Source: Parcubacteria group bacterium GW2011_GWC2_42_12 (GTDB lineage Bacteria; Patescibacteriota; Patescibacteriia; Patescibacteriales; GWC2-42-12). Taken from it: DNA of 42,627 nucleotides. This document shows positions 6,863-40,983 of this stretch, piece after piece. The position numbers and the translations under genes were made by a program. The DNA is taken from positions 1-42,627 of the forward strand of contig LCCP01000005.1 of assembly GCA_000997945.1 (NCBI GenBank), given 5' to 3'. The notes beneath the pieces were generated by a model. The model did no database searches, was not told the DNA's origin, and was given only the letters and a program-made list of their open reading frames with translations. How positions within the stretch are numbered: position 1 is the first letter of the stretch; each line of letters starts with the position of its first letter.

Positions 6863-6917
6863 AATAATTCAATCATTCATTAAAAATTGTAAATTGAAAA
6901 TTAAAAATTATTTTTTT

Positions 6918-15616: not shown

Positions 15617-15688
15617 TCCCGGGTAGCGCAGCGGTAGCGCAGCGCGCTGTTAACGCGTTGGTCGTCGGTTCGAATCCGACCCCGGGAG
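15617..15688 (+). tRNA. tRNA-Asn(GTT)
   Basis: Acceptor stem TCCCGGG/CCCGGGA with discriminator G. The D-arm is GCGCAGCGGTAGCGC. The anticodon stem GCGCG/CGCGT has loop CTGTTAA (anticodon GTT). The T-arm is GTCGG-TTCGAAT-CCGAC. CCA is not encoded. The 3' end is the integration site of the adjacent element. Confidence 0.95.
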
Positions 15689-17158
15689 CAAATTAGAACA
15701 CTTAGACGCTGAAAGCACCGTATCATACGGTGTTTTTAGCTTATATATGAGGTTTTTATCTTTTAATTGGCAGTTCTGAAGTAGGTAATTTAAAAATTGC
15801 CTTTGTTCCGGCACTTCAGAATTTTCAAAAATTTCACGAGCACGCTTTGCCAAATTTAATATAGTGTTTGCCGTGATATAATACTGATTATTGGCTTTAT
15901 CGTGTTTGCTTATTTCCGTCATTAGCTTGGCTTGCTTTTCCGTGTATTCTTTAAACTTTTTGTCATAGAAATCATTAGTAATACTACCGTCATATTTATC
16001 GTCTTGCAATTTGCTTTTGCGATTTTCAATTTTATCATATTCTTTTCTTAATTCCTGTAGCGTATTGGTAAAAAAGCGATTTTCTGATTTTGTGGCTTGT
16101 TTTAAGTCTTGCACTAACTCTTTAACTTTTTTATCCGGCAAATTTATACTATCCAATAATTCATAAATTGGCTTTAATAAATCGGCTTCTTTAACATAAA
16201 CCCTTTTTTTGTGGGTTCTATGATAATTCGTGCAACTATAATAAATATGCCCCTTTGAGGTTTCGGGCGTGATCGTGCAACCGCAATCGGCGCATTTTAT
16301 CAATCCTCTAAATATAAACGGCTTAGCGGCGTATTTAAAAGGTTTTTTATGCCAGCCATTCATTATCTCTTGGGCTTTATCAAACAAATTTTTGGCTATA
16401 AGCGACGGGTATTTATGCTGGTATAATTCGTTTTTTATTTTCATCATTCCATAGTAAAACGGATTTTTTAAAGTGTGGTAAAGCATACTTATTGAAAGGG
16501 GCTTAGGGCTTGCAGTATTGCTTTTTAATCCCGCCCGATCCATTGTTCCCTCAATCTGTCTTAATGAATAATCGCCGGTCGCATACATTTCAAACATTTG
16601 TTTTACATAAGGGCTTCGGCGAGGGTCAATCATAATAGCTTTATTGCCCTTTTCGTCCTCGTAATTGATATAACCTACGGGAGCTTTGCCAATCCATTCG
16701 CCATTTTTAATTTTATTTTCATTGGCTCTTTTTACATTATCGCTAACGGAGTCTGAATAGTATTTTGCAAGGCTTACGCCTATAGTAAATCTGAATAAAT
16801 CGGTAGCGGGGGAGTCTTTATGTAAAATAATATTATCCGAGGGGAAGTGTAGCTCTATTTTTCCGGCTCTTCTTAATTCTTCCAATAAAGCTAAATCCAT
16901 CGTGAAGTTTCTAATCAAGCGGTCAATCTTATCGCAACATAAAGCCGTTATCTCTTTTGAATTTTGCAGAATATCCAATATTCTTTTAAATTCTTCTCTT
17001 TTGGTTTTCCAAGCCGACTCATCAAAATTAAATTCTTTAAAAACGCTTAACTTTTTTTCTCGGCAATATTTCTGCAATCTTAATAATTGAGCGGGCAAGG
17101 AATTGCCAGCTTCTTTTTGCTCTTCAGTTGACACACGGGCTAAAATTATTGCTTTCAT
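15650..17158 (-). CDS. Large serine recombinase (integrase) reading into tRNA-Asn
   Basis: A 502-residue large serine recombinase. The catalytic domain starts MKAIILARVSTEEQ with nucleophile S10 and has CCDKIDRLIRN. The recombinase domain includes GKAPVGYINYED and LKNPFYYGMMK. A zinc ribbon (CADCGC ... YYSC) and a long coiled coil (about 360-450) follow. The last 12 codons (PGSDSNRRPTR and stop) are antisense tRNA-Asn sequence, so the gene crosses its own attachment site. A CACCGTAT-C-ATACGGTG palindrome (15716-15732) followed by TTTTT lies in the gene and could end tRNA transcription. It reads leftwards behind res. Confidence 0.93.
   Translation of the reverse strand: MKAIILARVSTEEQKEAGNSLPAQLLRLQKYCREKKLSVFKEFNFDESAWKTKREEFKRILDILQNSKEITALCCDKIDRLIRNFTMDLALLEELRRAGKIELHFPSDNIILHKDSPATDLFRFTIGVSLAKYYSDSVSDNVKRANENKIKNGEWIGKAPVGYINYEDEKGNKAIMIDPRRSPYVKQMFEMYATGDYSLRQIEGTMDRAGLKSNTASPKPLSISMLYHTLKNPFYYGMMKIKNELYQHKYPSLIAKNLFDKAQEIMNGWHKKPFKYAAKPFIFRGLIKCADCGCTITPETSKGHIYYSCTNYHRTHKKRVYVKEADLLKPIYELLDSINLPDKKVKELVQDLKQATKSENRFFTNTLQELRKEYDKIENRKSKLQDDKYDGSITNDFYDKKFKEYTEKQAKLMTEISKHDKANNQYYITANTILNLAKRAREIFENSEVPEQRQFLNYLLQNCQLKDKNLIYKLKTPYDTVLSASKCSNLLPGSDSNRRPTR
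15686..15689. other. Putative attachment-site core (GAGC/GCTC) at the tRNA-Asn end
   Basis: The junction between tRNA-Asn and the element reads GGGAGC-AAATTAG on the plus strand. In the recombinase reading direction this is TTG CTC then CCGGGG. The same GCTC tetramer sits at all six recombinase/cassette junctions further right. The exact crossover cannot be placed without the partner site. Confidence 0.5.
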
Positions 17159-17272: not shown

Positions 17273-19651
17273 TTAAAATAATTTTTCCATTGGTCGCCAA
17301 TTTTTGTCTTGGCCAATTTTACCTTTTTGATATTTATAATTTGTTGAGCCGTTATAATTCCAAACGCCGTTTTCAAAAATCGCTATACCGCCAACATAGC
17401 CCTTGCCCAATTCTTTGAGTTTTAAGGCCAATGCTTTGGTTTTGTCTGCCGTTTCGGGATCTTCGGCTGTTTGCCCGTCTTTAGGGTCAAAAATGCCTAT
17501 CCTGCCATTTTTAAAGCGTATTATGAAGTCTGGGTAGAATAGGGCTTCTTTGTCGTCAACGCTGTTAAAATACTTGATTGCAAAATACTCTTGGCCATAA
17601 TTGCCATTTTTAAACCACCAATCAATTTTTTTACTTTTGCTTTCAAGGTATTTGATAAAATTAAGCTCATTATCTTTGCCATTATAATCTTTAAGCACAA
17701 AACATTTATCCAAAGCGCAAAGTTTTTGCGGCACTTCTTCATAATCAGATGTAAAACCGTAATGTTCCAAAATTTCAAAAATCGGAGTTTCCTTTTCTTC
17801 TTCTCTTTTCTTTTTATCTTTTAGTATGGCTTGGGCTGTCGGCTTAAAATCAGCCAATGCTTTAGTTATTGCCGGCCTAAATTTACTGCTCGCTCCCTTT
17901 TGTATGTCTTTAACAAAAATTCTGTAATAATAGTTGCTGTCTTTGCTTAATGCCGATTGAAACCAAACACGGATCGCTGATTTAAGCACTCCCCAAGCAC
18001 GGGCGAAATTAGTATATTTTGCCCGCTCATCAGTTTGCTCTTTTAAAAGCGAATAGCAAAAGTAGTTAAAAGTTTTTTCAACATCGTTGGTTGACATTTC
18101 CAACTCAACATCAACGCCTTTTTTCTTAAACTCATAGGCCATTTGTTCAAGGTCTTCAAATTTAGCGTTGGCAATAATACTGTTGGTTAGCTTGCGGCTT
18201 AAATCAACGCCCGCTTTTTTTAGCTTTGCTTCCACTTTTCCAAAAATATCATTTTTAGTAATGCTAAAATAGATGTTAATTGAGTTGATAAAACTCGCTT
18301 GAAATTTTGCAGAGGCTGGTATATCGCCATAGTCAATGCGGGAAATATAGGCCGATTGTAATTTAACATTTTTAATGCCTTGCTTGCGGTAAGCAAACCT
18401 ATCAGGAATTTGTTTTTTCTTTAGATCGGGCAGTTCAACTTGGCTTCGTTTATAGTTGGTGTATAAATAGCCGGTTCTTAAATTCGGATTATTTTTATAA
18501 TCTTCTTTGGCCTGCGGTTCGGCCATTCTTAAAATACGGCCAACTGTTTGAGTATAAAAAGTTTCCTTTTTTATATCCCTAAACATAACTAACACGCTGG
18601 CGCGCGGGCAATCCCAGCCCGTGCCGGCGGCCTGTTTAAAAAGCATATAGTCAACTTTGCTGTCGTTGTCGGCAATAAAGTCCAAGTTCTCTTTTTTCTT
18701 GTCAAACCATTTAGCTATCTGTTTATTTTTAACGCCCTTAACGGCTAAAAATTGGCTCACAACTTCTTCTTTTGTCTTATCGCCTTTGGCCATAAGCTCT
18801 TTGTCGTCATTAGGGAGCTGGATCAGCATTAGCGGGTTAATATCCTTACCTAACGCTTTTAATTCATTCGCCAGCTCTTGCCGTTTTTCCATCCCTAAGG
18901 TCAACAGCATTTCGTCTAAATCCTTGCCCTTATGTTGTTTCAAATCTTCTTCAGTCTGCACTAAAATTTTTTCTTTAATCAAACCCTCGTCAACTACTTT
19001 TTCCCTTTCAACCGGCACAAAACTACCTAATGTAGCGGCCTTAACTACATCCTTGTCATCCGGCGTTGCGGTAATAAGGACAGCAATTTTAGGGTCTACA
19101 AGATCAATAATATCTTGCGCCAATTCAGTTGTTTTGTTGGTGTGGGCTTCGTCTATAAATAAAATAATTTCTCGGCCTGCCTTTTTAGTTTCCTCAATTA
19201 CATCTTCAAAATAACTGCCGCTTTCCTTTTTAAATCTTTTATCTTTCGGTTTGCGTAATTTTAGTTTTCTGGTTGAGGCGTTATCTTGCACAACCTTTTG
19301 CCAATTTAAAAATAAAATATCGTTTTCGTATAACTTGCCCCTGTTTATATCATTTACAGTCAACAGCGCATTTTCTAAATTGTTTTCAAAATACTCCCTA
19401 AATTTATCCCTGCTTTGCATTGTCAAGTCATCGCTAAAAGTAATCCAAATAAACGCCTTATCTATTTTCCATTGCGGTAAGTGATTAAGCCCTTTTATAA
19501 AATGGGCAATGGTTAAAGTCTTGCCGCTTCCGGTAGGGGATTTAAAAACCAAAGGCAACTGCCGGCCTTGTTTTTTCCAAAGCCGCAAAAAGGCTTCGTT
19601 TAAGCCGTCAATAGCTGTTTTTTGAAATGGTAAAAGATTAAATACAGGCAT
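17273..19651 (-). CDS. Type III restriction endonuclease subunit Res
   Basis: A 792-residue helicase-nuclease. Walker A is SPTGSGKT near residues 39-46 and the DEAH-type motif is LFIDEAHTN near 167-175. ITATPDDKD is motif III, and TGWDCPRASVLVMFRD plus TQTVGRILRMAEP are motifs V and VI. Near the C-terminus FYPDFIIRFKNGRIGIFDPKDG fits the PD-(D/E)xK nuclease core. Res works in complex with Mod to translocate on and cut unmethylated DNA. It follows mod by 2 bp. It is shorter than many Res proteins (often 900-1000 residues) but all core motifs are present. Confidence 0.9.
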   Translation of the reverse strand: MPVFNLLPFQKTAIDGLNEAFLRLWKKQGRQLPLVFKSPTGSGKTLTIAHFIKGLNHLPQWKIDKAFIWITFSDDLTMQSRDKFREYFENNLENALLTVNDINRGKLYENDILFLNWQKVVQDNASTRKLKLRKPKDKRFKKESGSYFEDVIEETKKAGREIILFIDEAHTNKTTELAQDIIDLVDPKIAVLITATPDDKDVVKAATLGSFVPVEREKVVDEGLIKEKILVQTEEDLKQHKGKDLDEMLLTLGMEKRQELANELKALGKDINPLMLIQLPNDDKELMAKGDKTKEEVVSQFLAVKGVKNKQIAKWFDKKKENLDFIADNDSKVDYMLFKQAAGTGWDCPRASVLVMFRDIKKETFYTQTVGRILRMAEPQAKEDYKNNPNLRTGYLYTNYKRSQVELPDLKKKQIPDRFAYRKQGIKNVKLQSAYISRIDYGDIPASAKFQASFINSINIYFSITKNDIFGKVEAKLKKAGVDLSRKLTNSIIANAKFEDLEQMAYEFKKKGVDVELEMSTNDVEKTFNYFCYSLLKEQTDERAKYTNFARAWGVLKSAIRVWFQSALSKDSNYYYRIFVKDIQKGASSKFRPAITKALADFKPTAQAILKDKKKREEEKETPIFEILEHYGFTSDYEEVPQKLCALDKCFVLKDYNGKDNELNFIKYLESKSKKIDWWFKNGNYGQEYFAIKYFNSVDDKEALFYPDFIIRFKNGRIGIFDPKDGQTAEDPETADKTKALALKLKELGKGYVGGIAIFENGVWNYNGSTNYKYQKGKIGQDKNWRPMEKLF

Positions 19652-19653
19652 AA

Positions 19654-21504
19654 TTAAACAAGGTTATAAATATTTTTATAAATTTCCAAAATCGGTTGCG
19701 GAATGGTTTTAATTTTTATGTTTTTATCGTCGTCAAAGTCGTTAAAATCAAATTCTTTTTCCCAGCTAAAAATATATACAACCGTCGGTTTTTTTAGCTT
19801 TCTAATTTTTTCAACAAAGTTATCAAACTTTCCAAATTCTTCCCTAAAATAAATGGCGGTAAATTGTTTAGGGCTTTCAAAGATTTGCCAAAAATTATTT
19901 TGCTCAACCAGATCAAAGGTATTTTCGGCAATGGCCAGCATACCGCCTGCGTTGTGGGCTAAATCAATTTTATCAGCGTCATCAGCTTTTAAGATATTAT
20001 TTTTACCAACAAAAGCCGTTTTGAAATATCTAACCGAATTGCCCAAACCTTTTTTTGAATTATAGCCCTTTATTACATTTTTAATTCGTGGATAACAAAT
20101 ATCCGTCATTATTTTGTGGTTTTGGCCGTTTATAACTTCTTCGTTATTTGTGATTATAATAAATTGCCTCTCCCCATCATCTTCCTTATTTAATTCCATT
20201 ACAGCATGACCTGTTGTGCCTGATCCAGCAAAAAAATCAAGAATTGTAGCATATTTATTGTTATTCCATTTTAAGATTTGCTTAACTAATCTAACTGGTT
20301 TTTTACCGTTCTTAAAATCTATATTACCCTCATCTTGAATATTACGCATATCCAAATGAAAACCTTTCCAAAGATCGCCTCGCAAAGTGCATCTTGTAAA
20401 TGCAGATTCAAAATCATCTGAATTTTTAATACCCTCTTTAAATTTTATAAACATACGAACTGAGCCAGTTGTTGTCTTAAATAAAAGCCTGTCTTCAAAT
20501 CTAAATGGTTTCCCAGTCGGTTGTTTTTTTAAAAAATTTTGATCAATTTTTTTAGCAAACGGCTGATCCGTAAATAATTTTTCTGCAACGGATACATACA
20601 TAAAATCTTTAAATTTTTCGTTAAAATTCATCATGAAATTTATGCTCCTTGCATTTATTTTGAGTTTGTTTTTACTAAATAGTTCTTTTACCCATTTTTC
20701 GTCATTTAAAAAATCAACAAGGCTAATTCTTGATAAATCATCTTTAATAATTGTATTAAAATGTGAGTCATATAATTCCCGCATATTGTCATAAAGTGGC
20801 TGTTTATTTTTTACTTCGCTTTTATTTTTTGCATAAACTAAAACATAGTCTTTTACTTTTACAAAAGTTTTATCAGCATGACCAGCTTTTGTTCCAAAAA
20901 CCTCACCACTTTCAATGACATTAAGCGAAATAAAATTACTTTCATTAAAAATTTCATCGCATAAAAGTTTTAACTGCGCAAGTTCGTTGTCGTCAATGCT
21001 TATAAAAATTAAACCGGTTTTAGCCAAAATATCCCTTGCTAAATCAAGACGCTTTTTCATAAAAGATAGCCAGTAGCTATGTCTCAAAGGATGTTCAACC
21101 GGCACTTCCGTGCCGTCGGGGTATTCTTCTAAAATTCTTTTGTCTTTATACTTAAAGCCGTCCGAGCCGGTGTTATACGGCGGGTCAATATAAATAACAT
21201 CAACCTTTCCTTTGTGGGTATAGTTTAGGCAAGTCAAGGCGTGGTAATTGTCGCCCTCAATCAGTAAATGCGTTGGCTTGCCGTCTTTGCTATATATTGC
21301 CTGCTTCGGCACTTCTTCCAAAATTGGGAGCTTATTTTCAACATCATCTTCAAAGGCTTCCGGCACATCAAGCCAAACTAAACCAAAGCGGTTTTGTTTT
21401 AGCTCTATGGCTTCGTATTTAGCAATTTTTTTATTAAGCCTCGCTATCTCATTTTCCAACTGCGCCTTTTCGTTTTCTTCGGGAGTACGCTTTGTGCTTT
21501 TCAT
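19654..21504 (-). CDS. Type III DNA methyltransferase subunit Mod
   Basis: A 616-residue adenine-N6 methyltransferase of the beta class. Catalytic motif IV is DPPY at residues 107-110 (VIYIDPPYNTGSDGF). Specificity is set by the variable middle region about 190-400. The SAM-binding motif FFAGSGTTGHAVMELN comes afterwards, giving the Mod motif order. A coiled N-terminus (ENEIARLNKKIAKYEA) is common in Mod proteins. It modifies the target and provides specificity to Res. The HTH gene ends 2 bp upstream, so the order HTH-mod-res is one operon. Confidence 0.92.
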   Translation of the reverse strand: MKSTKRTPEENEKAQLENEIARLNKKIAKYEAIELKQNRFGLVWLDVPEAFEDDVENKLPILEEVPKQAIYSKDGKPTHLLIEGDNYHALTCLNYTHKGKVDVIYIDPPYNTGSDGFKYKDKRILEEYPDGTEVPVEHPLRHSYWLSFMKKRLDLARDILAKTGLIFISIDDNELAQLKLLCDEIFNESNFISLNVIESGEVFGTKAGHADKTFVKVKDYVLVYAKNKSEVKNKQPLYDNMRELYDSHFNTIIKDDLSRISLVDFLNDEKWVKELFSKNKLKINARSINFMMNFNEKFKDFMYVSVAEKLFTDQPFAKKIDQNFLKKQPTGKPFRFEDRLLFKTTTGSVRMFIKFKEGIKNSDDFESAFTRCTLRGDLWKGFHLDMRNIQDEGNIDFKNGKKPVRLVKQILKWNNNKYATILDFFAGSGTTGHAVMELNKEDDGERQFIIITNNEEVINGQNHKIMTDICYPRIKNVIKGYNSKKGLGNSVRYFKTAFVGKNNILKADDADKIDLAHNAGGMLAIAENTFDLVEQNNFWQIFESPKQFTAIYFREEFGKFDNFVEKIRKLKKPTVVYIFSWEKEFDFNDFDDDKNIKIKTIPQPILEIYKNIYNLV

Positions 21505-21754: not shown

Positions 21755-22864
21755 CTATCTATTAAGGCGGAAAGGATTAAATTCCCTTAATTCTCTTTTT
21801 ATATCCTGTAAAAATCCCCAGACAGAATTGCTAAAAATTTTGTCTTCAAATTTTTCAAATTCTTTTTTTGCAAGCTCCCAACTTACTTTGTATTTCGGGC
21901 GGCTGTCAACAATCTGCCTAAAACCCCTCATTCCCTGCTCGGTCTTGCAGAGCATATACAGCCCGACATATTTGTAGGCCATAGTGTTTTTTATTTTAGG
22001 AAATATCATAAAAATTTTTTGTAAAATTTCTTGTGGATCGTTATTAGTGCTGAAAATAAAAGGGTTATCGCTAAAATATTTAGTCCAGTATAAGTTTAGT
22101 ATTTTTTGGCACAAATCCTTTTTAAAAATATCTTTAAAGAGCGGATCGGGGGAGTAGCCGACTTCTTTTAATATTTCGTTCATTTTTCTTTTTTCGCTTA
22201 ATCTCACCTCCATTCTTAAAAGTTCAATTCTCTGTTTTTCTTTTAAATAATCAAATAAAGATTTTTGATATTTAGTTTGTTGTTTATCAACCGCCCGATT
22301 TTCGGCGTTTTCTAAGTCTGCGATCTTGTCATAGAAAACAAGCGAGTGGGAGTTAGTATAAAATAGTAATTCTTCAATATTGTTTTTAAATTTAATTTTT
22401 GAAATATCAAATTTTTTGCTTATATCAATTTTAGCCAATTCTCTCATGGCAAAAGTGCTGGTGTAGCCCTTGCTAAGTGGTATATTTTTTGAAGGATGAA
22501 GGGCTAAGACTTGGGCGTATTTTAGTGAGTTTAAATTAACCTCAACTCCCATAGCAAATAATTTTTCTTTTAATTTTCTTAGCACTTCGTCAAAATCTTT
22601 ATCTTCTAACTCATCAACATTGTTATTAAATAATATTTTGGGAGCTGAAAGTTCTATTACTAAATAGTATCCCGCCCCTCGTTTATAAATAGTCATTTTT
22701 GGCTTGTAAATTTTCAGGCTTTTATCATAAGCCATTGGGTTATTTACATATTTAAAATAGGGGAGTTTATTTTCTAACATCCTTATCGTCGGGGGAATAA
22801 ATTTACTATGGTCAATTATTTCATATCTGCCCCGCGGAATTTGTAATTTTACAGTATCAAACAT
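21755..22864 (-). CDS. Putative phage gene II/X-like replication initiation protein
   Basis: A 369-residue protein beginning MFDTVKLQIPRGRYEI. This start, the early beta-rich half and the central SLVFYDKIADLENAE segment resemble gene II/X replication proteins of filamentous phages and small plasmids, which nick an origin and start rolling-circle replication. I cannot place the catalytic tyrosine with confidence. It follows spoVG-like by 27 bp on the same strand. Together with the hairpin-rich non-coding block at 24.6-25.4 kb, it suggests that the element can replicate after excision. Confidence 0.5.
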   Translation of the reverse strand: MFDTVKLQIPRGRYEIIDHSKFIPPTIRMLENKLPYFKYVNNPMAYDKSLKIYKPKMTIYKRGAGYYLVIELSAPKILFNNNVDELEDKDFDEVLRKLKEKLFAMGVEVNLNSLKYAQVLALHPSKNIPLSKGYTSTFAMRELAKIDISKKFDISKIKFKNNIEELLFYTNSHSLVFYDKIADLENAENRAVDKQQTKYQKSLFDYLKEKQRIELLRMEVRLSEKRKMNEILKEVGYSPDPLFKDIFKKDLCQKILNLYWTKYFSDNPFIFSTNNDPQEILQKIFMIFPKIKNTMAYKYVGLYMLCKTEQGMRGFRQIVDSRPKYKVSWELAKKEFEKFEDKIFSNSVWGFLQDIKRELREFNPFRLNR

Positions 22865-22891: not shown

Positions 22892-23155
22892 TTATTGGTT
22901 TAATAATTTTTCAACTTTGGCAATTATCGCTTCTTCAATCAGCTTGCTTGTCTTTTTATTTATCGGGTGGTAAATATTTATGTTATTGTCGCCGATTTTT
23001 TTGGTTGGGTAGGTTAGCCGGTAGCCTACCCCGTCCAGCCTCTTGTGTATGCCGATTGAGCCTAAATACAGGCAATCATCAAAAACAACGCTCCCAAAGG
23101 CCACAAGGCCGTTATTCGCCTTGATAGGGATTATTTGTATTTCCGTTATTTTCAT
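22892..23155 (-). CDS. SpoVG-family RNA/DNA-binding regulator
   Basis: An 87-residue SpoVG-like protein: MKITEIQIIPIKANNGLVAFGSVVFDDCLYLGSIGI, then RLTYPTKK and IYHPINKKTSKLIEEAI. This matches the SpoVG pattern (MKITDVRI, ASVTFDD, MPSKK, HPI). In Firmicutes SpoVG is a small nucleic-acid-binding regulator; in mobile elements it often sits next to replication genes, as here. The upstream 52-residue gene overlaps its start by 44 bp. Confidence 0.8.
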   Translation of the reverse strand: MKITEIQIIPIKANNGLVAFGSVVFDDCLYLGSIGIHKRLDGVGYRLTYPTKKIGDNNINIYHPINKKTSKLIEEAIIAKVEKLLNQ

Positions 23156-23355: not shown

Positions 23356-24597
23356 TTACTCTATGTATTTTGGGTTAATTTGAATTTGTTTAGTGCTTTT
23401 TGTTAGAAAATCTCTGATCCCAGTATCTAAAGCAATCGTTTTATTTATCTCATCGCTGGCGGTATAAAATCTAAGCGTTTTAACTTTTAGATTATCCTCG
23501 CCCCAGTCTTCCCATATTTCGTCATTAGTCCACTTATATTTTGGTTTTTTAAATAAGGTATTTAACAAATCTCTTTGAATTGGTTTTTTGTCAAAATTAA
23601 GCTCTTTATTTTGGAAGTATAAAATGCCGTCTTTAAAAGTAGTTTTTATTATTTTTATTTTTGTCTTTTGCGCTTCCGTTTTATCTTTTAATAAACTGTC
23701 AATCGTAATTGGCAAATTTAGAAAATCAACTTTCCAAAAATTTTCATCATCCCATTTATTTATCTTGATTTTTTTGTTTATTTCAAGATATTTTAAAATT
23801 TTTACTATTTCAAAACTTTTATTTTCCAAAGCTGAAAAGGGGATGTTAATGGTATTTTTAATAAGCGGCAAATTGTTAATAAAAGTATAAAAATTTTCAA
23901 TTTGTTTGGCAAAATATATTCGGCTCGTATCACTATAGCTTGGGCGAAAATCTTTATATAAATCGGTAGAAAACTTATGCAAAAAAATTTTAATTTCTCT
24001 TTCAATAACCCCTATTGCCTCATTGATATAAGTAATTCTAAAATAAATGTTTTCTGGCACTATATCAATTAACAACCCTATATTTTTATTGTATTTACCT
24101 TTAAAAAAAAGAGGCTCATATAATGCATCGTGGTTAAATTTATTATTTTTTATAAGCTCTTTTATCCTTTCTTCTTCTAACACCTTTAACTTAAATATTT
24201 CATCAATCACCGAGCAGTAATAATCAGTTTCAATGGGAAACCCGCTGTCATTTTTTATTGCCTTTTCTATTACTGTTTCTAACATTATATTCGGGCTCAA
24301 AACACCAATCTGTCTTATTTTTAATAAATCTAATTCATCGCCAATATTTATTATTTTCTGTAAAATATAATCATTTATGCTGTTAAAATCATTAGTGTCG
24401 TTTAATTCATTATCAACTTCCTTAATATTATTAGGCTCGCCTTTTATAAAATTATTAAGGCATAGAGGGTCGCTTACAAAAACATCCTTTTTTCTTGAGT
24501 GATATTTTTCAAGCAAGATCAATATGATTAACAATGAGTAATCATTATCAAAATTGCGGTAATACCTATTTTCTGTTTCTTTAAATACATCAAACAT
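23356..24597 (-). CDS. Unknown 413-residue protein with possible C-terminal winged helix
   Basis: Not recognised. It is acidic and Lys/Ile/Asn-rich, without signal peptide or membrane segments. The C-terminal 110 residues (DGILYFQNKELNFDKKPIQRD ... KWTNDEIWEDWGE ... LRFYTASDEINKTIALDTGI) look like a separate small domain, perhaps a DNA-binding winged helix. It reads away from the hairpin-rich block at 24,598-25,438 and towards the replication operon, so a role in element maintenance is possible. Confidence 0.7.
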   Translation of the reverse strand: MFDVFKETENRYYRNFDNDYSLLIILILLEKYHSRKKDVFVSDPLCLNNFIKGEPNNIKEVDNELNDTNDFNSINDYILQKIINIGDELDLLKIRQIGVLSPNIMLETVIEKAIKNDSGFPIETDYYCSVIDEIFKLKVLEEERIKELIKNNKFNHDALYEPLFFKGKYNKNIGLLIDIVPENIYFRITYINEAIGVIEREIKIFLHKFSTDLYKDFRPSYSDTSRIYFAKQIENFYTFINNLPLIKNTINIPFSALENKSFEIVKILKYLEINKKIKINKWDDENFWKVDFLNLPITIDSLLKDKTEAQKTKIKIIKTTFKDGILYFQNKELNFDKKPIQRDLLNTLFKKPKYKWTNDEIWEDWGEDNLKVKTLRFYTASDEINKTIALDTGIRDFLTKSTKQIQINPKYIE

Positions 24598-24708
24598 TAT
24601 TTTTTCATTACATTTTTAATCTATATCAATATTATGGCTTTATTTGCTGAAAAAATCAAGCTCTTTGACTTTATAAACAAAACTAAAAACACGGTTTTAA
24701 AAGGAATT

Positions 24709-24778
24709 GTTTTTTATTTTTTAAAGGGCTTCGCTTTTTCGCCCGAAGGCGAAAACGCCCTTTAAAAAAGTAAAAAAC
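24709..24778. repeat. Large inverted repeat 1
   Basis: GTTTTTTA and TTTTTTAAAGGGC on the left pair with GCCCTTTAAAAAA and TAAAAAAC on the right. An inner TTTTTCGCC/GGCGAAAA stem closes with a CGAA loop. The whole 70 bp can form one hairpin. Confidence 0.75.
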
Positions 24779-24835
24779 CTTACTGATTGGCGAGTATGTT
24801 TTAAATGGCAAAAAGGGTTTGCGTGCGTCCGCCGC

Positions 24836-24903
24836 TTGTCGCCTAATCTGACTTTTTAAGACGCTTTATGAAAAATCGTCGTAAAAAGCTGATTAGGCGA
24901 CAA
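24836..24903. repeat. Large inverted repeat 2
   Basis: A perfect 13-bp outer arm TTGTCGCCTAATC / GATTAGGCGACAA is followed inward by CTTTTTA/TAAAAAG and GACG/CGTC. The loop is about 13 bases around CTTTATGAAAAAT. Confidence 0.8.
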
Positions 24904-25034
24904 CGCTTTTTCGTAAATACGCCAAGTTTGGTAGTGTCGTGGCACAAAATTAAATGCTTTGCGTGGTGGGGGTCGGGCGAGACTATCAAGAAAACGGCGG
25001 AAAGCAAAAACTAAAAATTTAAAAATTGAAATTG

Positions 25035-25109
25035 AAAAAAGACCGCCCGAAAAATAGCAAACGCTTGAAACCGACAAAGCGTTTAATATTTTTCTGGCCG
25101 TCTTTTTTT
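25035..25109. repeat. Large inverted repeat 3
   Basis: The arms read AAAAAAGACCG..AAAAATA..AAACGCTT and AAGCGTTT..TATTTTT..GGCCGTCTTTTTT, a stem of about 28 bp with a few mismatches and a 10-base loop. Its T-rich right arm could also terminate a rightward transcript. Confidence 0.75.
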
Positions 25110-25312
25110 AGAGGAGGTTATCTTTTAAATTTTCAGTTTTCGCTATCCGCCTTTGAGCGTGGCGAGTAAATACTAACAAGTTCGTGAATTTGCGGGCGGG
25201 ATTTTAGTTTTTCTTCTTGCCGTGTCATTGCTCCGCCCGCCCGCCAAACAATACGCCTTGCTGTAAATTAACGCCATATTTATTGGTAGCTTTTATTAAA
25301 ATTTGACTTTTA

Positions 25313-25341
25313 TTGTCTGATAATATAAGGTATGCTATAAT
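25313..25341 (+). promoter_or_regulatory. Sigma-70 promoter for the 25439-26283 gene pair
   Basis: TTGTCT (25313-25318), a 17-bp spacer and TATAAT (25336-25341) leave a leader of about 90 bases before the first start codon. Confidence 0.6.
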
Positions 25342-25438
25342 TGTTGTATCATCATTTTCTCTCTTCTATTATTGATTTTTCAGCAAGATGTTTTTCTATC
25401 TTAATTTTATTTTAATATTTTAGTAGTAAAGTAATTTT

Positions 25439-25759
25439 ATGCCAGAAAAATATCAAAAAACAATAGAATTAATAAAAAAATTCTCTCCCAAAACTTTTGG
25501 TATTAAAAATGCCTACTATAGAATTAATAAAGACAATATTAATTTAGTTTTTATAGTTGATGAAAAAAATGCATCAAGTTTAATCAGTTATCTAAATTCT
25601 TTGACAAAAATTATAGAAAGGGAGTTGGGAGATGTCAAAATTGAAACGAGCGTTTATGTTTATGATAAACAATATAAAAATAATAAATTAGAAAATAATT
25701 CTAAACTTGAAAAAATACAACTAACCAGCAATATTTCTTATGCTGGAGCTCAAACATAA
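25439..25759 (+). CDS. Hypothetical 106-residue partner of the HEPN-like gene
   Basis: Not recognised. A small basic protein with alternating helix/strand pattern (NINLVFIVDEKNASSLISYL, VKIETSVYVYD). The C-terminal tail is polar and probably disordered. No nucleotidyltransferase GS..D motif was found, so it is not an obvious MNT antitoxin. It precedes the HEPN-like gene by 5 bp under one promoter, the usual arrangement of a two-gene toxin-antitoxin or defence unit. Confidence 0.65.
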   Translation: MPEKYQKTIELIKKFSPKTFGIKNAYYRINKDNINLVFIVDEKNASSLISYLNSLTKIIERELGDVKIETSVYVYDKQYKNNKLENNSKLEKIQLTSNISYAGAQT

Positions 25760-25764
25760 GAAAT

Positions 25765-26283
25765 ATGTCAAGCGATGTATATAAAGATTTTTTAATACAA
25801 GCCCGAGTTAATGAGGGGCTTGTATTATATTTAAAAGATGAATGTTCTAAGGAGTGTTTTTTTAAATGGATATTTGTTGCCATTTATTATTCTGCATTAC
25901 ATTACTTTAATGCCTTTTTATCATTTAAGGGTCATCCCTTACCGGAGAGCCATTTTAACAATAAATATAATTTAGGTGATGTTGAGTTGGCGAGAGATAA
26001 ATTTTATACACAAAAAAATGATATTACTCACGGCGCAGGAGCTGATTATAGCCAACTTTTTCAATGGGGCTTTGATGTTAGATATAAACCCTATCAAGCC
26101 GCACTTATTAATGAAAAGACTTTAGATGTAGCTATAAATTTTCTTGAAGGTATTAAACTAACCACTTTTAATGAAATAGGATGTATGCCCGAGATGGAAA
26201 AAGGTAAAATTGAAATAAAACAGGTTAGTAAAGATTATTTATCAAAAACTTATAATAAATATATTCAATTAGTAAATAATTAA
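25765..26283 (+). CDS. HEPN-like protein
   Basis: A 172-residue helical protein. KWIFVAIYYSALHYFNAFLSFKG resembles the second helix of HEPN domains, and QKNDITHG (K84, N85, H89) sits where HEPN RNases have R-N-x-x-x-H, with lysine instead of arginine. HEPN proteins are often RNA-cutting toxins or effectors; the substitution could reduce or abolish catalysis. Its stop codon overlaps the convergent recombinase stop at 26280, so the two genes end on the same bases. Confidence 0.55.
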   Translation: MSSDVYKDFLIQARVNEGLVLYLKDECSKECFFKWIFVAIYYSALHYFNAFLSFKGHPLPESHFNNKYNLGDVELARDKFYTQKNDITHGAGADYSQLFQWGFDVRYKPYQAALINEKTLDVAINFLEGIKLTTFNEIGCMPEMEKGKIEIKQVSKDYLSKTYNKYIQLVNN

Positions 26284-27779
26284 AAACTATTTGGAAAGCT
26301 ACCGCATTGGAAAATAGATAATTCTTCTTTTATTTTATCCCAATCCAGCGTTCTAAATATGTTCTTAATCGGGAGCCATGTCGCATACGCCTGCCTTCGG
26401 CAGGCAAGCTCCCACTCAAATTGAGCTAAAAATTCAAACTTTCCGCCTTGCAAAATAAAGTTCGAGCCGATATTTCTTAGAAATGCTTTGAATTGGGGAA
26501 GATCGCCTTCATCGGCGGTCTTTTTTGCTAATCTTGAACGCAAAATAAAATCTCTCATTGGTTCGAGCCAATTATCGCCCTGATCGTTAATTCTTTTGAC
26601 TTTTTCTTCCAGGCCGATTTTTTTGTTGATTAGTTCCTCTTTCTTTCTCAAATAGTCGTTTTTATCAATTACATTTTCCAGATGAGAATCAAGCAGATTA
26701 TCAAGTTTATTCTCAATAATTTTAACTTCCTGATTTAAAGAATTAACCAGGGCGACAGATGATTGGGCGGTTGCCTTTTTCTCTTTATTTAATTCATTAA
26801 GCATATTATTAGCCCAATCATCAGGTAAAGAAACTTTTTGCATTATATTTTTAAGCTGGTCGGTTAAATTTTCTTCTCTAACATATTTTTCAGCGCAGAT
26901 GCCTTTTTTCTTGGTACAGCGGTAATAAATATGGCCTTTGTGCTTTTCGGCGGTAATCGCACAGCCGCAAGCTCCGCACTTCATAAAGTCGGTAAAAATA
27001 TAATTGTGTATTTTCTTTTCATGATGCCGGCCTCTTCGTTTTAGCATAACTTGGGCTTGGTCAAAAAGTTTCTTGGTTATAATTGGCTCGTGCTTGCCTT
27101 CGTGCATTTCGCCCTTATATCTAAACACGCCGTAATAAAAAGGATTTTTTAAAACGAACAACATCATGCCCGGACTTATCTTTTTACCGTTGTGGCTGGT
27201 TAACCCCAAACCGTTAAATTTATCGGCTAAATTTTTTAGGGTATATTCGCCGGTGGAGTAGAGCTCAAAAATCCTTTTTATAAGTTTATGCTTTTCGGTG
27301 TGGATAACTATATTGTGGTTTTTATAGTCGTTCAGATAGCCGAGCGGCGCCCAGCCCGGATAAACTCCGTTTCTTAATTTTTGCCTTAATCCTCGTTTTA
27401 CGTTTTCCGAAAGGTTGTCTATAAAATACTTGCTTTGGCCGAAAGCGATGTTAAGCATAAACTTTCCCTGCGGCGTGTCCTCAAACCAGAAAGAGGGGAA
27501 TTTAAGAGATTTTATTTTGCCCGTATCAACCATATAAATAATTCGACCGCCGTCAATCGGATTTCTGGCTAAGCGATCAGGATGCCACGATAAAATGCCG
27601 TCTGCCTGCCCATTTTCAATCAAAGCCAGCATTTTGCCGAATTTCATTCGGCCAGGTTCTTTGGCAGTTTTTGCCTCGCAGAGCGAGGCGGCGATTTCAA
27701 GTTTTTCTTTGGCGGCAAATTCTTTTAATTCGGCATCGTCTTCATCGGTGGATTTACGGGCGTAAAGTATATATTTCAT
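26280..27779 (-). CDS. Large serine recombinase R2 with cargo-derived C-terminus
   Basis: A 499-residue large serine recombinase. It starts MKYILYARKSTDEDD with nucleophile S10. LSWHPDRLARNPIDGG and GYLNDYKNHN follow, then LKNPFYYGVF, a zinc ribbon (CGACGC ... YYRC) and a coiled coil. Compared with related proteins, about ten residues after STDEDD (usually R-Q-x-x-S-I-x-x-Q) are missing, which may impair the catalytic domain. The last 30 residues after ATWL lie outside the inverted-repeat unit (26280-26372), so they come from the neighbouring cassette. ATG 27779 is preferred to an earlier start. Confidence 0.88.
   Translation of the reverse strand: MKYILYARKSTDEDDAELKEFAAKEKLEIAASLCEAKTAKEPGRMKFGKMLALIENGQADGILSWHPDRLARNPIDGGRIIYMVDTGKIKSLKFPSFWFEDTPQGKFMLNIAFGQSKYFIDNLSENVKRGLRQKLRNGVYPGWAPLGYLNDYKNHNIVIHTEKHKLIKRIFELYSTGEYTLKNLADKFNGLGLTSHNGKKISPGMMLFVLKNPFYYGVFRYKGEMHEGKHEPIITKKLFDQAQVMLKRRGRHHEKKIHNYIFTDFMKCGACGCAITAEKHKGHIYYRCTKKKGICAEKYVREENLTDQLKNIMQKVSLPDDWANNMLNELNKEKKATAQSSVALVNSLNQEVKIIENKLDNLLDSHLENVIDKNDYLRKKEELINKKIGLEEKVKRINDQGDNWLEPMRDFILRSRLAKKTADEGDLPQFKAFLRNIGSNFILQGGKFEFLAQFEWELACRRQAYATWLPIKNIFRTLDWDKIKEELSIFQCGSFPNSF
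26373..26451 (-). repeat. R2 inverted arm, left
   Basis: 79 bp starting GAGCCATGTCGCATACGCC on the plus strand; inverted copy at 27881-27959. Contains the CGCCTGCC-TTCGGCAGGC hairpin. Confidence 0.85.
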
Positions 27780-27880
27780 AATTTTGAAAGAAATACTGAT
27801 TTTAATCATGATTTAAATCAGTATTTAAATAAAAAGAAAAAAAGAAAAGTTTGCTTTTGGCTTTCCTCGCTGTCGCTCGG

Positions 27881-27959
27881 GCAAGGCGGAAAGTTTGAAT
27901 TTTTAGCTGAATTTGAGTGGGCGCTTGCCTGCCGAAGGCAGGCGTATGCGACATGGCTC
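27881..27959 (+). repeat. R2 inverted arm, right
   Basis: 79 bp from GCAAGGCGGAAAG to ATGGCTC; inverted copy of 26373-26451 with two mismatches. Confidence 0.85.
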
Positions 27960-28004
27960 CGATTTTACGCCGAAGTTCGAACGGAATTCAAAAAAAGGTT
28001 TTAA
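27882..28004 (+). pseudogene. Mirror copy of the recombinase 3' end with alternative tail
   Basis: Read on the plus strand this encodes QGGKFEFLAEFEWALACRRQ, AYATWL and then a new tail, RFYAEVRTEFKKRF, before a stop. The frame is open across the GGCTC junction, with CTC as the same leucine codon as in R2. It has no start of its own; it would become the C-terminus of R2 if the unit inverted. Confidence 0.7.
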
Positions 28005-28077
28005 ACTATTTTATATAAAGCTTTTAAAAGCGCCCGCCCCCGCTTTTAAAAGCCCCCGCGGGCAAAGCCCGACTTTA
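27960..28077 (+). repeat. Cassette C1 end repeat (tail A), left
   Basis: About 118 bp starting CGATTTTACGCCGAAGTTCG and including AAGCTTTTAAAAGCGCCCG hairpins. An inverted, nearly identical copy ends C1 at 32331-32455. A related version starts C3 at 40984. No gene is visible in 28005-28322. Confidence 0.8.
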
Positions 28078-28263
28078 AAAAACTGCCAAAGAACCTGTAA
28101 AAAATATCGGCTCGAACTTTATAATCAAACGAGCGAGAGAAATAAAAAATTCATTTTTTTTATTTCCGAGCGAGCGCAGATTATATCCACTGAATATTTT
28201 AAGCCAAAAGCAAACTTTTCTTTTTTGTTGAATTTATTGATATAATTGTATTAATTATATTAT

Positions 28264-29554: not shown

Positions 29555-29563
<9 letters not shown>

Positions 29564-31006
29564 TTTATCAAATAAGCCCTCGTTGACTGTTTTTAATCTT
29601 TCTTTCGATAATTCGCAATACTCTTCCGAAATATCAATACCGATATATTTTCTTCCGAGCTGCTTGGCGGTAACGACCGTGGAGCCAGAGCCGACAAACG
29701 GATCTAAAACAATGCCATCTTTCGGGCAAAAACATTGAATGAAATCATAAGGAATCTTATCCGGGAAAACAGCCGGATGTTTTCTTTTTAATGGATTTTT
29801 ATCTCCCGCGTTTAAATAGTCCCAAATAGTTCCACGACATTTCATGGCGTTGATTTGTCTAGTTATCGTTTTGGTGGTTGTGCCATCCGTTTTTCGGTTT
29901 CCGCTTCCAGTCATAACCTTGCCGCCATGTTTGGACGGCACTTTTAATGGTTCTTTGTTAAAATAAGCTGGTCTTTCGCCTTTTATGAAGATTGGCATAT
30001 ACTCATGATCAACGCGAAATCTATACTTCCACCAAGCGCCTTCGGTGCCGTATTTTCTGTATATAACCGTTTCGAAAAGTTTAAAGCCGATATTATCAAC
30101 CCAATCTACTATTGTACGGAAAGAGGTGAGGGATTTGCCAAAGTTTTTTGTTTGATCTTGTATGACCATGGCTACAATTCCGCCGTCTTTTAGAACGCGG
30201 AATAATTCTTTACCAGTTTCGTGTAAGTTAAAACTAAAACCATTATATTTTCTAACTTCATCATATGGCGGCGAGGTGACTACCATGTCGACAGAATTAT
30301 CTGGCAGGTTTTTAAGAGTATCTACGCAGTCACCGCAAATAATCTTATTTAATGGTAACTCTTTGTATTGTACTACCTTTTTTTCCTCTGCCTGTAGCTC
30401 AGTTGTTATATTTTTAATAACATCAATTACTATCCCCTGGATCATTAAATTTTCCGGTTTAACATATATTGGGTTCATTCTTAAATTTGCCGGTTGCAAA
30501 CGGATCCTATTTTTTTCTTTATAAATTTTTTTTAGTGTTACTTCGCAATTATCAATTAAGGCCACAACTTTTTGTCCGCTATCGGCCGTTGATTGGCTTT
30601 TTATTATTACAATATCACCGTCGCTGATATTTTCTCCGGTCATACTGTCACCGCTTACGCGCAAAGCAAAAATATCGGATGTTTCCGGTAAATTAATTTT
30701 AGGTACCGCGATAGTTTCTCTTTCTTCTGTCGCTTCAATCGGTTGCCCGGCGGCGATTGTACCTTTTAATGGAATTTGGATAAAGTCATCTATAGTTTTT
30801 TTAATTTCTATACCCCTTGAAGAATTCTCATTTTTTATTAAATAATTTTTATTTATCAACGCCTCAACATGTTGATGCACCGTAGAAAGCGCGGAAAGTT
30901 TGAAGCGTTTTTTTATTTCTTCGTAAGTAGGGGATATACCACTTTTTTTAATATATTCCCCAACGAAGTCTAAGATCTGTTTTTGTCTCTTTGTTAGAGT
31001 TTGCAT
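29555..31006 (-). CDS. LexA-type self-cleaving repressor fused to a DNA methyltransferase
   Basis: A 483-residue continuous frame. Residues 1-70 are the LexA winged helix (LTKRQKQILDFVGEYIKKSG, SPTYEEIKKRF). Residues 75-200 are the S24 peptidase with cleavage site A86-G87 (GTIAAGQPI), serine S121 (SGDSM) and lysine K159 (EVTLKKIY), the full LexA set. After a short linker (about 200-218), residues 219-483 are an amino-methyltransferase: ICGDCVDTLKNLPDNSVD, TSPPY at 244-248, and LDPFVGSGSTVVTAKQLGRKYIGID near the end. It would methylate DNA (N4-cytosine or N6-adenine) and bind an operator, with DNA damage able to separate the two parts. Confidence 0.9.
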
Positions 31007-32330: not shown

Positions 32331-32455
32331 TAAAGCCGGGCTTTGCCCGCGGGGAAATTTTGCTTTTAAAAGCGGGGGCGGGCGCTTTTAAAAGCTTTAT
32401 ATAAAATAGTTTAAAACCTTTTTTTGAATTCCGTTCGAACTTCGGCGTAAAATCG
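32331..32455 (-). repeat. Cassette C1 end repeat (tail A), right
   Basis: Inverted copy of 27960-28077, starting (minus strand) CGATTTTACGCCGAAGTTCG right after the AGCTC junction. It also encodes the C-terminal tail of recombinase R3. Confidence 0.8.
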
Positions 32456-33878
32456 GAGCTTTCCGCCTTAAGGCGGAAAGCTTTTCAGGCGAAAATTCAG
32501 CCCCGCCCCGCACCTCGCAGGCGGGGTTTTCGGTTTGGAGCGAATTAAAAAGATTTTCCCCTAAAACAAAAGAAATTCTAATGCTTTCGGGCGAATAAGT
32601 TATTTTTTTAAGAAATCTTTTAGCTAAAAGATTTCTTTCGACTCCCGTCTTAGTTTTGAGGGCAGAAAGGAAAAATTTTAGAGTGTGAGCAATTTTCTCT
32701 GACGAAAATTGCGAAAATTTAGAGCATGCAGGCGTCAGTTCGTATTCGGCCTCGTGGGGCGTTCGCAACGCCTCATTTTGCGAATTAGGTTGATTATTTT
32801 GTAATTCATAGTTTAGCCGAAAAACTAGATTTTCAATATAATCGCTGTCAACGGAAATTCGCTCTAAATTTTCAATACAAAAATTTTCCAATCTTTCGGC
32901 GGATACTTGTTTTACCGAACAGGCTTGCCAGTCGTGCCCCAAAGTAGAGGTACAGCGATAGTAATAATATCTCGTCAGCTTTCCGTTCGTTCTCTTATTC
33001 GTAAAATAAGAGGTCATTTTAGAGCCGCATTTTTCGCATTTTATCAAACCGCCGAAAAGAAAATTTTTGTATACTCTAAAATTTTTTCTTTTGTTTTTGT
33101 GTATTTTTTGAGCAAGGGCAAAAATTTCTTCCGAGATTATCGATTCATGCGTGCCTTGATAAATTTCATCGTTATATTTTATTTTTCCGACATAAACGAC
33201 ATTTCTTAATATAGAGAAGATAGTAGTTTTAGAGAAATTTTTGCCCCGTTTATTTTTTATGCCTTTTTCTATTGCCATTTTATATACTTTTGACAATGAG
33301 CCGATTTCAAGATAGTTTTCAAAAATTGATTTTATTTCTTCGGCTTCTTTCGGGCAGGGGATAAGCTTTTTGTTTTCGCGCGCGTATCCGTAAGGCGTAT
33401 TTCCGCCATTGCACATGCCTTTTTTAGCCCGCTCCAGCATTTTGTCTTTTGTCCGCTCGCTAGTTAGTTCTCTTTCAAACTGGGAAAAAGTAAGCATGAT
33501 GTTGCGAAGCAATCTGCCCGCTGGCGTTGAAGTGTCAAATCTTTCAGTAATAGAAATAAAATCAATTTTTGCTTGCTCAAAAAATTCGATCAACTGATAA
33601 AAGTCCTTGGGCGAACGGGTGAGCCGGTCGATTTTATACACAAAAACAATATCAATTTTTTCTTTTTTTAAATCCGAAAGCAGTTGTTGCAGAGCAGGCC
33701 TTTCAAGGGTTACCCCTGAATAGCCAGCGTCGGAATAAACTTTGAAAACTCGCCAATCGTTCTGGCTGGAGATAAACGACTTTATTTTTTGCTCCTGGGC
33801 CTCGCAAGACGAAAACTCTTTTTCCGCTTGGTTATCGGTTGAAACTCTTGTATAAATCGCGCAATTTTTATAATTCAT
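32397..33878 (-). CDS. Large serine recombinase R3
   Basis: A 493-residue serine recombinase of a different subfamily from R2. It has MNYKNCAIYTRVSTDNQ (S13), VFVYKIDRLTRSPKDFYQ, MLTFSQFERELTSERTKD, PYGYARENK, and a zinc ribbon (CEKCGS ... YYRCTSTLGHDWQAC). The catalytic domain is complete, so this is the only apparently intact recombinase in the right-hand array. The last residues after RRKAP are encoded by the end of cassette C1, in another frame from the R2 tail. ATG 33878 follows a structured leader. Confidence 0.92.
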   Translation of the reverse strand: MNYKNCAIYTRVSTDNQAEKEFSSCEAQEQKIKSFISSQNDWRVFKVYSDAGYSGVTLERPALQQLLSDLKKEKIDIVFVYKIDRLTRSPKDFYQLIEFFEQAKIDFISITERFDTSTPAGRLLRNIMLTFSQFERELTSERTKDKMLERAKKGMCNGGNTPYGYARENKKLIPCPKEAEEIKSIFENYLEIGSLSKVYKMAIEKGIKNKRGKNFSKTTIFSILRNVVYVGKIKYNDEIYQGTHESIISEEIFALAQKIHKNKRKNFRVYKNFLFGGLIKCEKCGSKMTSYFTNKRTNGKLTRYYYYRCTSTLGHDWQACSVKQVSAERLENFCIENLERISVDSDYIENLVFRLNYELQNNQPNSQNEALRTPHEAEYELTPACSKFSQFSSEKIAHTLKFFLSALKTKTGVERNLLAKRFLKKITYSPESIRISFVLGENLFNSLQTENPACEVRGGAEFSPEKLSALRRKAPILRRSSNGIQKKVLNYFI

Positions 33879-34251
33879 ATTTTTAAAAACCAAAGGGGCA
33901 ACCCTGCGAACCCAATCCCGCTTTCGCGAAATTGACAGGAGTTGCCCCTTCGGTATTACAACAATTAAGTTATAATAAAAAATCGCGGAGCGTATGGATT
34001 GGGTTCGTTCCTATTATACCAAATATTTGAAAAAAAGAAAAAGAAAAAATTGATACCGCCCTCAAAACAAAAAATAACCTATTCGCCCGAAAGCATTAAA
34101 ATTTCTTTTGTTTTAGGGGAAAACCTTTTTAATTCGCTCCAAACCGAAAGCCCCGCCTGCGAGGTGCGGGGCGGGGCTGAATTCTCGCCTGAAAATTTTT
34201 CCGCCTTAGGGCGGAAAACTGAAGATGAGTTCGTTTCGTTAAGCAATGCTC
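32456..34251. mobile_element. Recombinase unit R3 with inverted ends
   Basis: A 1796-bp unit whose ends are the R3 3' coding region (32456-32610) and a mirror copy (34063-34251). The mirror copy differs by a 45-bp-class deletion and an extra stretch of about 29 bp before TGCTC. The outer ends are GAGC and GCTC as in R2. Less exact than the 79-bp arms of R2. Confidence 0.65.
33893..34007 (-). promoter_or_regulatory. Structured leader of recombinase R3 (interlocking inverted repeats)
   Basis: In transcript order: CGAACCCAATCC (34007-33996), AAGGGGCAAC (33950-33941), GGATTGGGTTCG (33918-33907), GTTGCCCCTT (33902-33893), then TGGTTTTT and the start codon at 33878. Segments 1/3 and 2/4 pair perfectly but interlock, so they form a pseudoknot or two exclusive hairpins. 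The second resembles a terminator. This layout suggests attenuation or translational control of the recombinase. Confidence 0.55.
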
Positions 34252-34394
34252 CCCAAAAAAAATTTCAGCGAACCCCGCAAGAAAGCAGGCTTTCAACGGG
34301 GCATGCTTTTACTCTCGTCCTGCCGAATTTAATCCACAAAGCAAGGACTTGCCTTCCAAAGGCACGGCGTAGGCAAAAAAAGAATTTAAGCTGA
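34063..34394 (+). pseudogene. Mirror copy of recombinase R3 3' end with different tail
   Basis: Open frame QKITYSPESIKISFVLGENL, then FNSLQTESPACEVRGGAEFS, matching R3 KKITYSPESIRISF and following residues, then diverging after the GCTC junction into a tail encoded by cassette C2. No start codon or catalytic part is present. It is the 3' remnant or the alternative C-terminus of an R3-type recombinase. Confidence 0.75.
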
Positions 34395-34568
34395 AAAATA
34401 TATTAAAATAATTTAAAAGTAATCAGTTAGGGGGCAAAGCCCCCTCTAACCCCCAAGAAAAGCGGGCGGGCAAAAAGGAAGGGGTTTAAGGGGAGGGAAT
34501 TTTTGCCCGCCCGCTTTTCCGCCCCGCCGTATTTTTTCGTATTTCGCTTCGCGAAATGCGCCGCCAAG
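34252..34568 (+). repeat. Cassette C2 end repeat (tail B), left
   Basis: About 317 bp starting CCCAAAAAAAAATTTCAGCG and including GCCGAATTTAATCCACAAAG, GGGGGCAAAGCCCCC and a GCGGGCGGGCAAAAA block. An inverted, diverged copy is at 39149-39430. No gene was seen in 34395-34782 apart from the structured RNA candidate. Confidence 0.75.
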
Positions 34569-40820: not shown

Positions 40821-40904
40821 AGTTTTAAGGGAAATATTGATTTTAATCAGTATTTAAATCAGTATTTCCATAAAAAGAAAAAAAGGAAAGTTTGCTTTTG
40901 GCTG

Positions 40905-40983
40905 GCAAGGCGGAAAGTTTGAATTTTTAGCTGAATTTGAGTGGGCGCTTGCCTGCCGAAGGCAGGCGTTTTCAAACTGGCTC
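40905..40983 (+). repeat. R2' inverted arm, right
   Basis: 79 bp from GCAAGGCGGAAAG to AAACTGGCTC; inverted copy of 39431-39509 with one mismatch. Confidence 0.85.

Follow-up and report, generated by a model that had tools for sequence, protein, structure and literature searches.

We analyzed a 42,627-nt stretch of DNA (contig LCCP01000005.1; hereafter the window) from the 1.03-Mb, 48-contig genome of Parcubacteria group bacterium GW2011_GWC2_42_12, which contains an integrated island with a structured non-coding block (Table 1). The bounds of the island, a tRNA-Asn gene on the left (15617–15689) and a putative attR on the right (26338–26376), were obtained by comparison with sister elements in two other genomes, L062 (G086) and L063 (G097). 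L063 is the window's element at the same tRNA-Asn, with the recombinase, Res, Mod, the gene II/X-like protein, SpoVG and a homologue of the protein encoded at 23356–24597, and L062 has the recombinase, the gene II/X-like protein, SpoVG and the 23356–24597 homologue in common with the window. The identities of these two loci to the window were 63% for the recombinase, 49–50% for the gene II/X-like protein, 78% for SpoVG and 59–60% for the 23356–24597 homologue. The ORF-free gap extends over exactly 841 bp (24598–25438) and, as originally predicted, lies between divergent genes. A position of the block outside the island was considered and rejected: when attR was compared with L062 and L063, the block fell within the island, with about 1.1 kb between it and the right end.

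Table 1. Positions of the block, its hairpins and the island genes in the window, and of UNK-A in the relatives
Feature	Position	Strand	Remarks
tRNA-Asn(gtt)	15617–15689	+	3΄ end is the putative left attachment site of the island
Large serine recombinase of the island	15650–17158	–	Pfam
Type III restriction-modification	17273–21504	–	Res 17273–19651, Mod 19654–21504
Gene II/X-like protein of the original prediction	21755–22864	–	Identity unconfirmed; same island, uncoupled from the block
SpoVG homologue	22892–23155	–	PF04026, E 5e-10; uncoupled from the block
Uncharacterised protein	23356–24597	–	Conserved in sister elements without the block
Conserved non-coding block	24713–25294	– (probable folding strand)	Homologues by blastn and covariance model
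Hairpin 1	24709–24778		~30 pairs, asymmetric bulge, 4-base loop; inverted repeats 24710–24729/24757–24776, 90% complementary
Hairpin 2	24836–24903		~27–30 pairs; inverted repeats 24836–24856/24883–24903, 86% complementary
Hairpin 3	24993–25154		Palindrome of ~160 bp; outer arms 24993–25024/25123–25154, 88% complementary
Tip of hairpin 3	25035–25066/25077–25108		88% complementary
Short G+C-rich stem	25189–25247		GCGGGCGGG / CCCGCCCG; conserved in relatives
Promoter-like site	25313–25341	+	TTGTCT-17-TATAAT, extended –10; consensus match only; probably for ORF 25439
Two small ORFs	25439–26283	+	No assigned function; between block and right end (first ORF 25439–25759)
Putative right attachment site (attR)	26338–26376		Ends GGGAGC like the tRNA-Asn 3΄ end; resembles the right ends of L062 and L063
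UNK-A genes beside the block in relatives	L024:3622–4365, L027:11015–11923, L025:4305–5141, L028:7227–8111, L026:53–466		Unnamed protein family

Elsewhere in the window, a 1.7-kb duplication (26371–28122 and 39429–41154, 89% identical) contains large serine recombinase genes, and these duplicated recombinase regions suggest a stack of several islands at the tRNA-Asn site. Additional repeats, in inverted and direct orientation, occur around positions 32331–34540. A 483-aa ORF on the minus strand (29555–31006) is an unusual fusion of LexA DNA-binding, S24 peptidase and N6/N4 DNA methyltransferase domains, an arrangement by which methylation might be linked to the SOS response; a LexA-like start and a similar length were also observed at L102:4909–6462.

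The three long hairpins that the original prediction placed in the gap were borne out as inverted repeats. In 200 dinucleotide shuffles of the block, none was as strong: the best stem score was 22.0 against a shuffled score that never exceeded 13.5, and the sum of the best three stems was 50.5 against one that never exceeded 34.0. Of 14 stems scoring at least 13 in the 42.6-kb window, three lie inside the 841-bp gap. The folding z-scores of positions 24630–25330 were –6.2 for the plus strand and –8.1 for the minus strand, with no equally stable sequence among 20 shuffles per strand. The three long hairpins in the gap are therefore confirmed to be far above chance. The predicted coordinates were accurate for hairpins 1 and 2; hairpin 3 proved to be larger, as the predicted 25035–25109 is only its tip. 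Two other strong palindromes were observed outside the block, at 6804–6902 and 34457–34519.

We rejected the idea that the block derives from a coding sequence, because no reading frame is open across all copies; the copies of two relatives (L027 and L028, described below) contain one frame each, of 172 to about 198 codons. When the window was compared with Rfam at the gathering score, the matches were two tRNAs and a LOOT RNA (RF03000; 34620–34741, plus strand, 76.4 bits with a gathering score of 46.4), and no family, whether GOLLD, ROOL, OLE or another, was matched in the block. The LOOT RNA, a known RNA family without an assigned function, is located 9 kb from the block. At E ≤ 1, the block yielded only sub-threshold Rfam matches, mostly to microRNA families and far below the gathering scores, and these were set aside as chance matches of hairpins. 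For a minus-strand transcript, the window offered neither a convincing promoter nor a convincing terminator.

We searched for homologues of the block in 111 genomes of the order. By blastn (E ≤ 0.001), 26 genomes were matched, of which 22 were set aside as chance since they gave short, low-scoring matches only, and four were kept. With a covariance model built from hairpin 2 and the adjoining flank, four of the 111 genomes were detected, namely, that of the window (one copy), G006 (two copies), G007 (three copies) and G107, Candidatus Falkowbacteria RIFCSPLOWO2_02_FULL_45_15 (one fragment). Six copies are full: the window copy and five copies in islands of the two congeneric genomes G006 and G007 (loci L024 to L028). 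A further genome of the same genus, G005, which is rated 90% complete, contained no copy. The block of L028 was also compared with 380 genomes drawn from the class, and matches were obtained only in G006 and G000. A pattern scan of genome contigs returned nine stretches, six of which were the copies in G006, G007 and G107; the other three, from Bacteroidetes, were rejected because their similarity beyond the pattern was not convincing (one match of 33 bases, E 0.002). Neither blastn against phages and plasmids nor a search of viral contigs with two block patterns gave a useful match. All the named relatives come from metagenome or draft assemblies. As each of the three G007 copies is no more than 3 kb away from a contig end, and the G107 copy is at the very end, binning errors are possible. 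On self-comparison, the window and every one of the five relatives displayed the same three palindromes (~70, 72 and 160 bp), arranged in an identical order. In addition, the identity of the joint between hairpins 2 and 3 was about 0.90–0.94 among the five relatives, and such long conserved joints are more than bare hairpins would need.

The block had also been proposed as a candidate origin, possibly of rolling-circle type, close to a gene II/X-like protein and a SpoVG homologue. The SpoVG homologue is real (Table 1). For the gene II/X-like protein, however, the label could not be confirmed: no match was obtained in Pfam (E ≤ 0.001, and none at E ≤ 1), PHROGs (E ≤ 0.01) or NCBIfam (E ≤ 0.01), and a single-sequence structure model was unusable (pLDDT 37.5). 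The gene is present in five of the 111 genomes, and among the four block-bearing genomes only in the window's own; G006 and G007, which hold five block copies, gave no match. No SpoVG was detected in any of the five stretches around the other block copies. Moreover, the sister elements L062 and L063 possess the same genes, and at the matching place they contain another ORF and neither block nor palindrome. The genes without the block in the sisters, together with the block without the genes elsewhere, indicate that the block is independent of both the gene II/X-like protein and SpoVG. Among eight nick words, a list that is not exhaustive, none was common to the six copies. With respect to a transfer origin, no relaxase was seen among the proteins scanned by Pfam, and two nic words were absent. 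A rolling-circle origin served by the protein at 21755–22864 is thus extremely improbable, even though block and gene reside in the same island of the window.

We then considered the covariation of the stems, which the original prediction had proposed to follow in homologous elements. In the six-row alignment, 93.6% of cells were paired, and 28 of 111 pairs had changed on both sides, compared with a mean of 14.5 in shuffles that keep the relatedness of these few and related copies (0/500 as high) and with 3–9 in slid controls. The stems accordingly covary. In hairpin 2, the covariation is located in the lower stem, and the upper stem and loop are almost invariant. Both strands folded far better than column shuffles according to alifold (z about –17 each). 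Mismatches in the arms, counted from a strand-symmetric alignment, differed between the strands: read on the plus strand, they comprised A-C 23, C-T 14, G-A 13, C-C 9, A-A 9, T-T 4, G-T 2 and G-G 1. Read on the minus strand, this corresponds to 23 G-T (or G-U) cells against 2 A-C cells, in related copies whose counts are not fully independent. By distinct context, the plus-strand counts were 13 A-C against 2 G-T (binomial test, P = 0.007), and a count restricted to 1 × 1 mismatches had the same direction (15 against 1). Hairpin 1 contributed no wobble evidence. For 16 of the 18 hairpins, the minus strand was also the more stable one. On the plus strand, keto bases predominate in the unpaired joints, which is the opposite of what a simple strand bias would require. 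However, in every copy the plus strand had the lower minimum energy for the whole block, and the minus strand was not preferred by either total folding energy or alifold energy. Covarying stems with strand-asymmetric mismatches suggest that a folded minus strand, as RNA or as single-stranded DNA, is probably under selection. G-T mismatches are tolerated in single-stranded DNA too; the wobble asymmetry favours a folded minus strand of either kind and does not separate the two.

Hairpin 3 exhibited a mosaic pattern. Its inner part is identical (82/82) between the two G006 islands, and a pair of the three G007 islands share it at 99% identity, with L026 in G007 departing from this within-genome pattern, and four sequence types occur among seven copies. 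Hairpin 1, by contrast, groups across genomes, that is, L024 with L027 (0.93) and L026 with L028 (0.90). The simplest reading of these comparisons is that the inner part of hairpin 3 has been exchanged between islands within a genome. Several copies per genome (three in G007 and two in G006) and four types of inner sequence might also be expected of a palindromic parasite, such as a MITE- or REP-like repeat, that had spread among islands. Such a parasite is very unlikely: all full copies are in islands, with the same orientation in the six integrase-bearing loci, solitary copies outside islands were not found in the genomes searched, and the homology continues into island genes with no sharp edge.

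The islands of the relatives differ in their integration apparatus. L027 is associated with tRNA-His and a serine recombinase, L026 and L028 with tRNA-Gly genes and tyrosine integrases, and L029 with tRNA-Asn and a truncated recombinase; L025 has a serine recombinase and no tRNA within the stretch examined. At L024, none of these integrase kinds was seen, and a 49-bp copy of the L027 attachment region is present. A 24-bp repeat of the tRNA 3΄ end marks both borders of the L028 island, which extends over 12.9 kb. Near the block, genes for restriction or another kind of defence are found in the window, L024, L025, L027 and L028; near L026, where the contig is cut close by, none were identified. 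The orientation of the block relative to the integrase was identical in all six loci with a visible integrase. As the block is common to islands with different integrases, tRNA targets and cargo, a common core function is suggested. In L025, L026 and L028, the block has core genes on one side and the integrase side of the island on the other, and its palindromic arms could bind dimers, as would suit double-stranded palindromes read by proteins. Such sites might be bound by integrase, by excision proteins or by regulators, or might serve the island in recombination. We nevertheless regard this possibility as improbable, given that the same block occurs with both serine and tyrosine integrases, that the putative attachment sites are elsewhere and that the mismatch asymmetry between strands is unexpected for a double-stranded site.

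The prediction that the gap contains a candidate origin of the element was upheld in part, inasmuch as initiator-like genes or ~16-bp iterons adjoin the block in the five relatives; its rolling-circle component was not. A Phage_rep_O protein adjoins the block in L024 (E 1e-16) and L027 (E 1e-13), and a winged-helix protein with initiator-family matches does so in L025. In L026 and L028, CTAAG repeats at a spacing of ~16 bp are located between the upstream genes and the block, in a number that none of 2000 shuffles reached; a similar, weaker cluster is present in L101, from a more distant genome, and there is no such array in L024, L025 or L027. DnaA-box words were observed in L024, L101, L102 and L103, and an AT-rich stretch beside the block is conserved among L024, L026, L027, L028, L101 and L103. 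UNK-A lies beside the block in all five relatives and was also found in G052 and G053. It is predicted to be all-helical (model pLDDT 72), with no fold match at E ≤ 0.001. Viral contigs, plasmids and phages gave no useful match to UNK-A, and in 362 genomes drawn from the class three matched, two of them short and weak. The window's genome contains no match to UNK-A, and neither an iteron array nor a recognised initiator gene adjoins the window copy, whose activity we infer.

Other structures were observed at related positions. Beside UNK-A in two distant islands, small cysteine-containing proteins end in ...CKLYRK.PKGYECT.QELRAISWN (L028:8426–8668 and L102:8535–8759), and a frame resembling them is visible upstream of the block in L026. 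Non-coding structured stretches with palindromes of their own occupy the matching place in more distant islands (L101:1–1004 and L103:1–916); they have a common motif around CGACCGG...CCGGTCG and gave no block match with the covariance model.

Two of the alternatives in the original prediction, an origin-type region and a structured RNA, survive, apart from the pairing of a rolling-circle origin with the gene II/X-like protein and SpoVG. In the former case, the hairpins would act as single-stranded DNA in the replication origin of the island after excision, either for priming or single-strand initiation (sso/ssi-like) or as a transfer-origin structure. The adjoining iterons of L026 and L028 and the CTAAG cluster of L101, the DnaA-box words, the neighboring Phage_rep_O-type initiators and the conserved AT-rich stretch all point in this direction, and the strand asymmetry fits, as G-T pairs are tolerated in this form. 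On the other hand, the copies have none of the eight nick words in common, no relaxase was seen among the scanned genes, the window copy retains its stems without adjoining iterons, and the joints are conserved over hundreds of bases. We consider a role as single-stranded DNA, the chief competitor of the RNA reading favoured below, possible, if rather unlikely.

The block is best explained as a conserved structural module, folded as a single strand, of the integrase-bearing islands of one patescibacterial genus; a fragment also occurs in a related genome of the Falkowbacteria. Most of these islands are associated with tRNA genes, and most carry defence genes. Judging from the sequences, the chances appear evenly balanced that this module is a structured RNA of ~0.6–0.9 kb from the minus strand, belonging to the replication or maintenance module of the islands. 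The minus strand, which is the probable folding strand and the sense strand of the island's integrase, would then be transcribed as a structured non-coding RNA of roughly this length, and the RNA might act in the replication or maintenance of the island after its excision, in roles such as copy control or the timing of initiation. This RNA reading draws on the same palindromes in all six copies, the covariation, the minus-strand wobble, the conserved joints, the initiators, UNK-A or iterons in all five relatives and the constant orientation relative to the integrase (6/6). It is weakened by the lack of an Rfam family, the lower energies of the plus strand, the small number and relatedness of the copies, the lack of a convincing promoter or terminator and the window copy being without iterons or an initiator gene. 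More tentatively, and with somewhat less than an even chance, the block might represent a new family of large structured RNAs on replicating defence islands of Patescibacteria, characterized by a fixed three-hairpin frame and an exchangeable inner part of hairpin 3 that tends to be alike in the islands of a genome.

Several known systems resemble parts of this arrangement. Theta origins of the iteron type, served by winged-helix or phage O-type initiators, are a known kind; an iteron array or an initiator gene likewise adjoins the block in relatives, but the iterons are outside the hairpin block and are absent beside the window copy. In IncQ/RSF1010-type plasmids, ssi palindromes adjoin an iteron origin, with a similar order of iterons, AT-rich stretch and G+C-rich palindromes, but no shared dedicated primase was found in the islands, and the block has three hairpins, at least two of which seem to fold on the same strand. 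Among large non-coding structured RNAs, GOLLD and ROOL occur in phage genomes, often near tRNA genes, according to the available text of PMC7567579. The block, as a predicted RNA, is comparable to GOLLD, ROOL and OLE in being large, non-coding and structured (as these are described in the available text of PMC12286853), but it consists of three long simple hairpins and has no Rfam match at the gathering score. The closest described arrangement appears to be that of the PLE phage satellites of Vibrio cholerae, in which, as far as the available text of PMC7567579 describes, the origin lies in a non-coding region of roughly 3 kb and abundant non-coding transcripts are produced. An integrated island with an integrase, a replication initiator, an origin in a large non-coding region and abundant non-coding transcripts is the set of PLE features that the block's islands would resemble. 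The PLE belong to another phylum, however, and in the same text their abundant transcript lies between two other gene clusters; the likeness drawn here is one of arrangement. Genomic islands with restriction-modification genes have been reported in Patescibacteria in PMC12455944, with similar cargo (type I restriction-modification in that case) in the same phylum, but its main text refers to no integrase, tRNA or recombinase, and no non-coding block is described in the available passages. A literature search of titles and the beginnings of abstracts found no description of the block, and one joining Patescibacteria and iteron gave no match.

If the block does represent such an RNA family, the pattern of the inner hairpin 3 would suggest gene conversion within the cell or matching of the RNA to its host. 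To our knowledge, little is known about the replication and self-regulation of mobile islands in Patescibacteria, and the block provides a concrete sequence to seek in metatranscriptomes or in circular-DNA reads.
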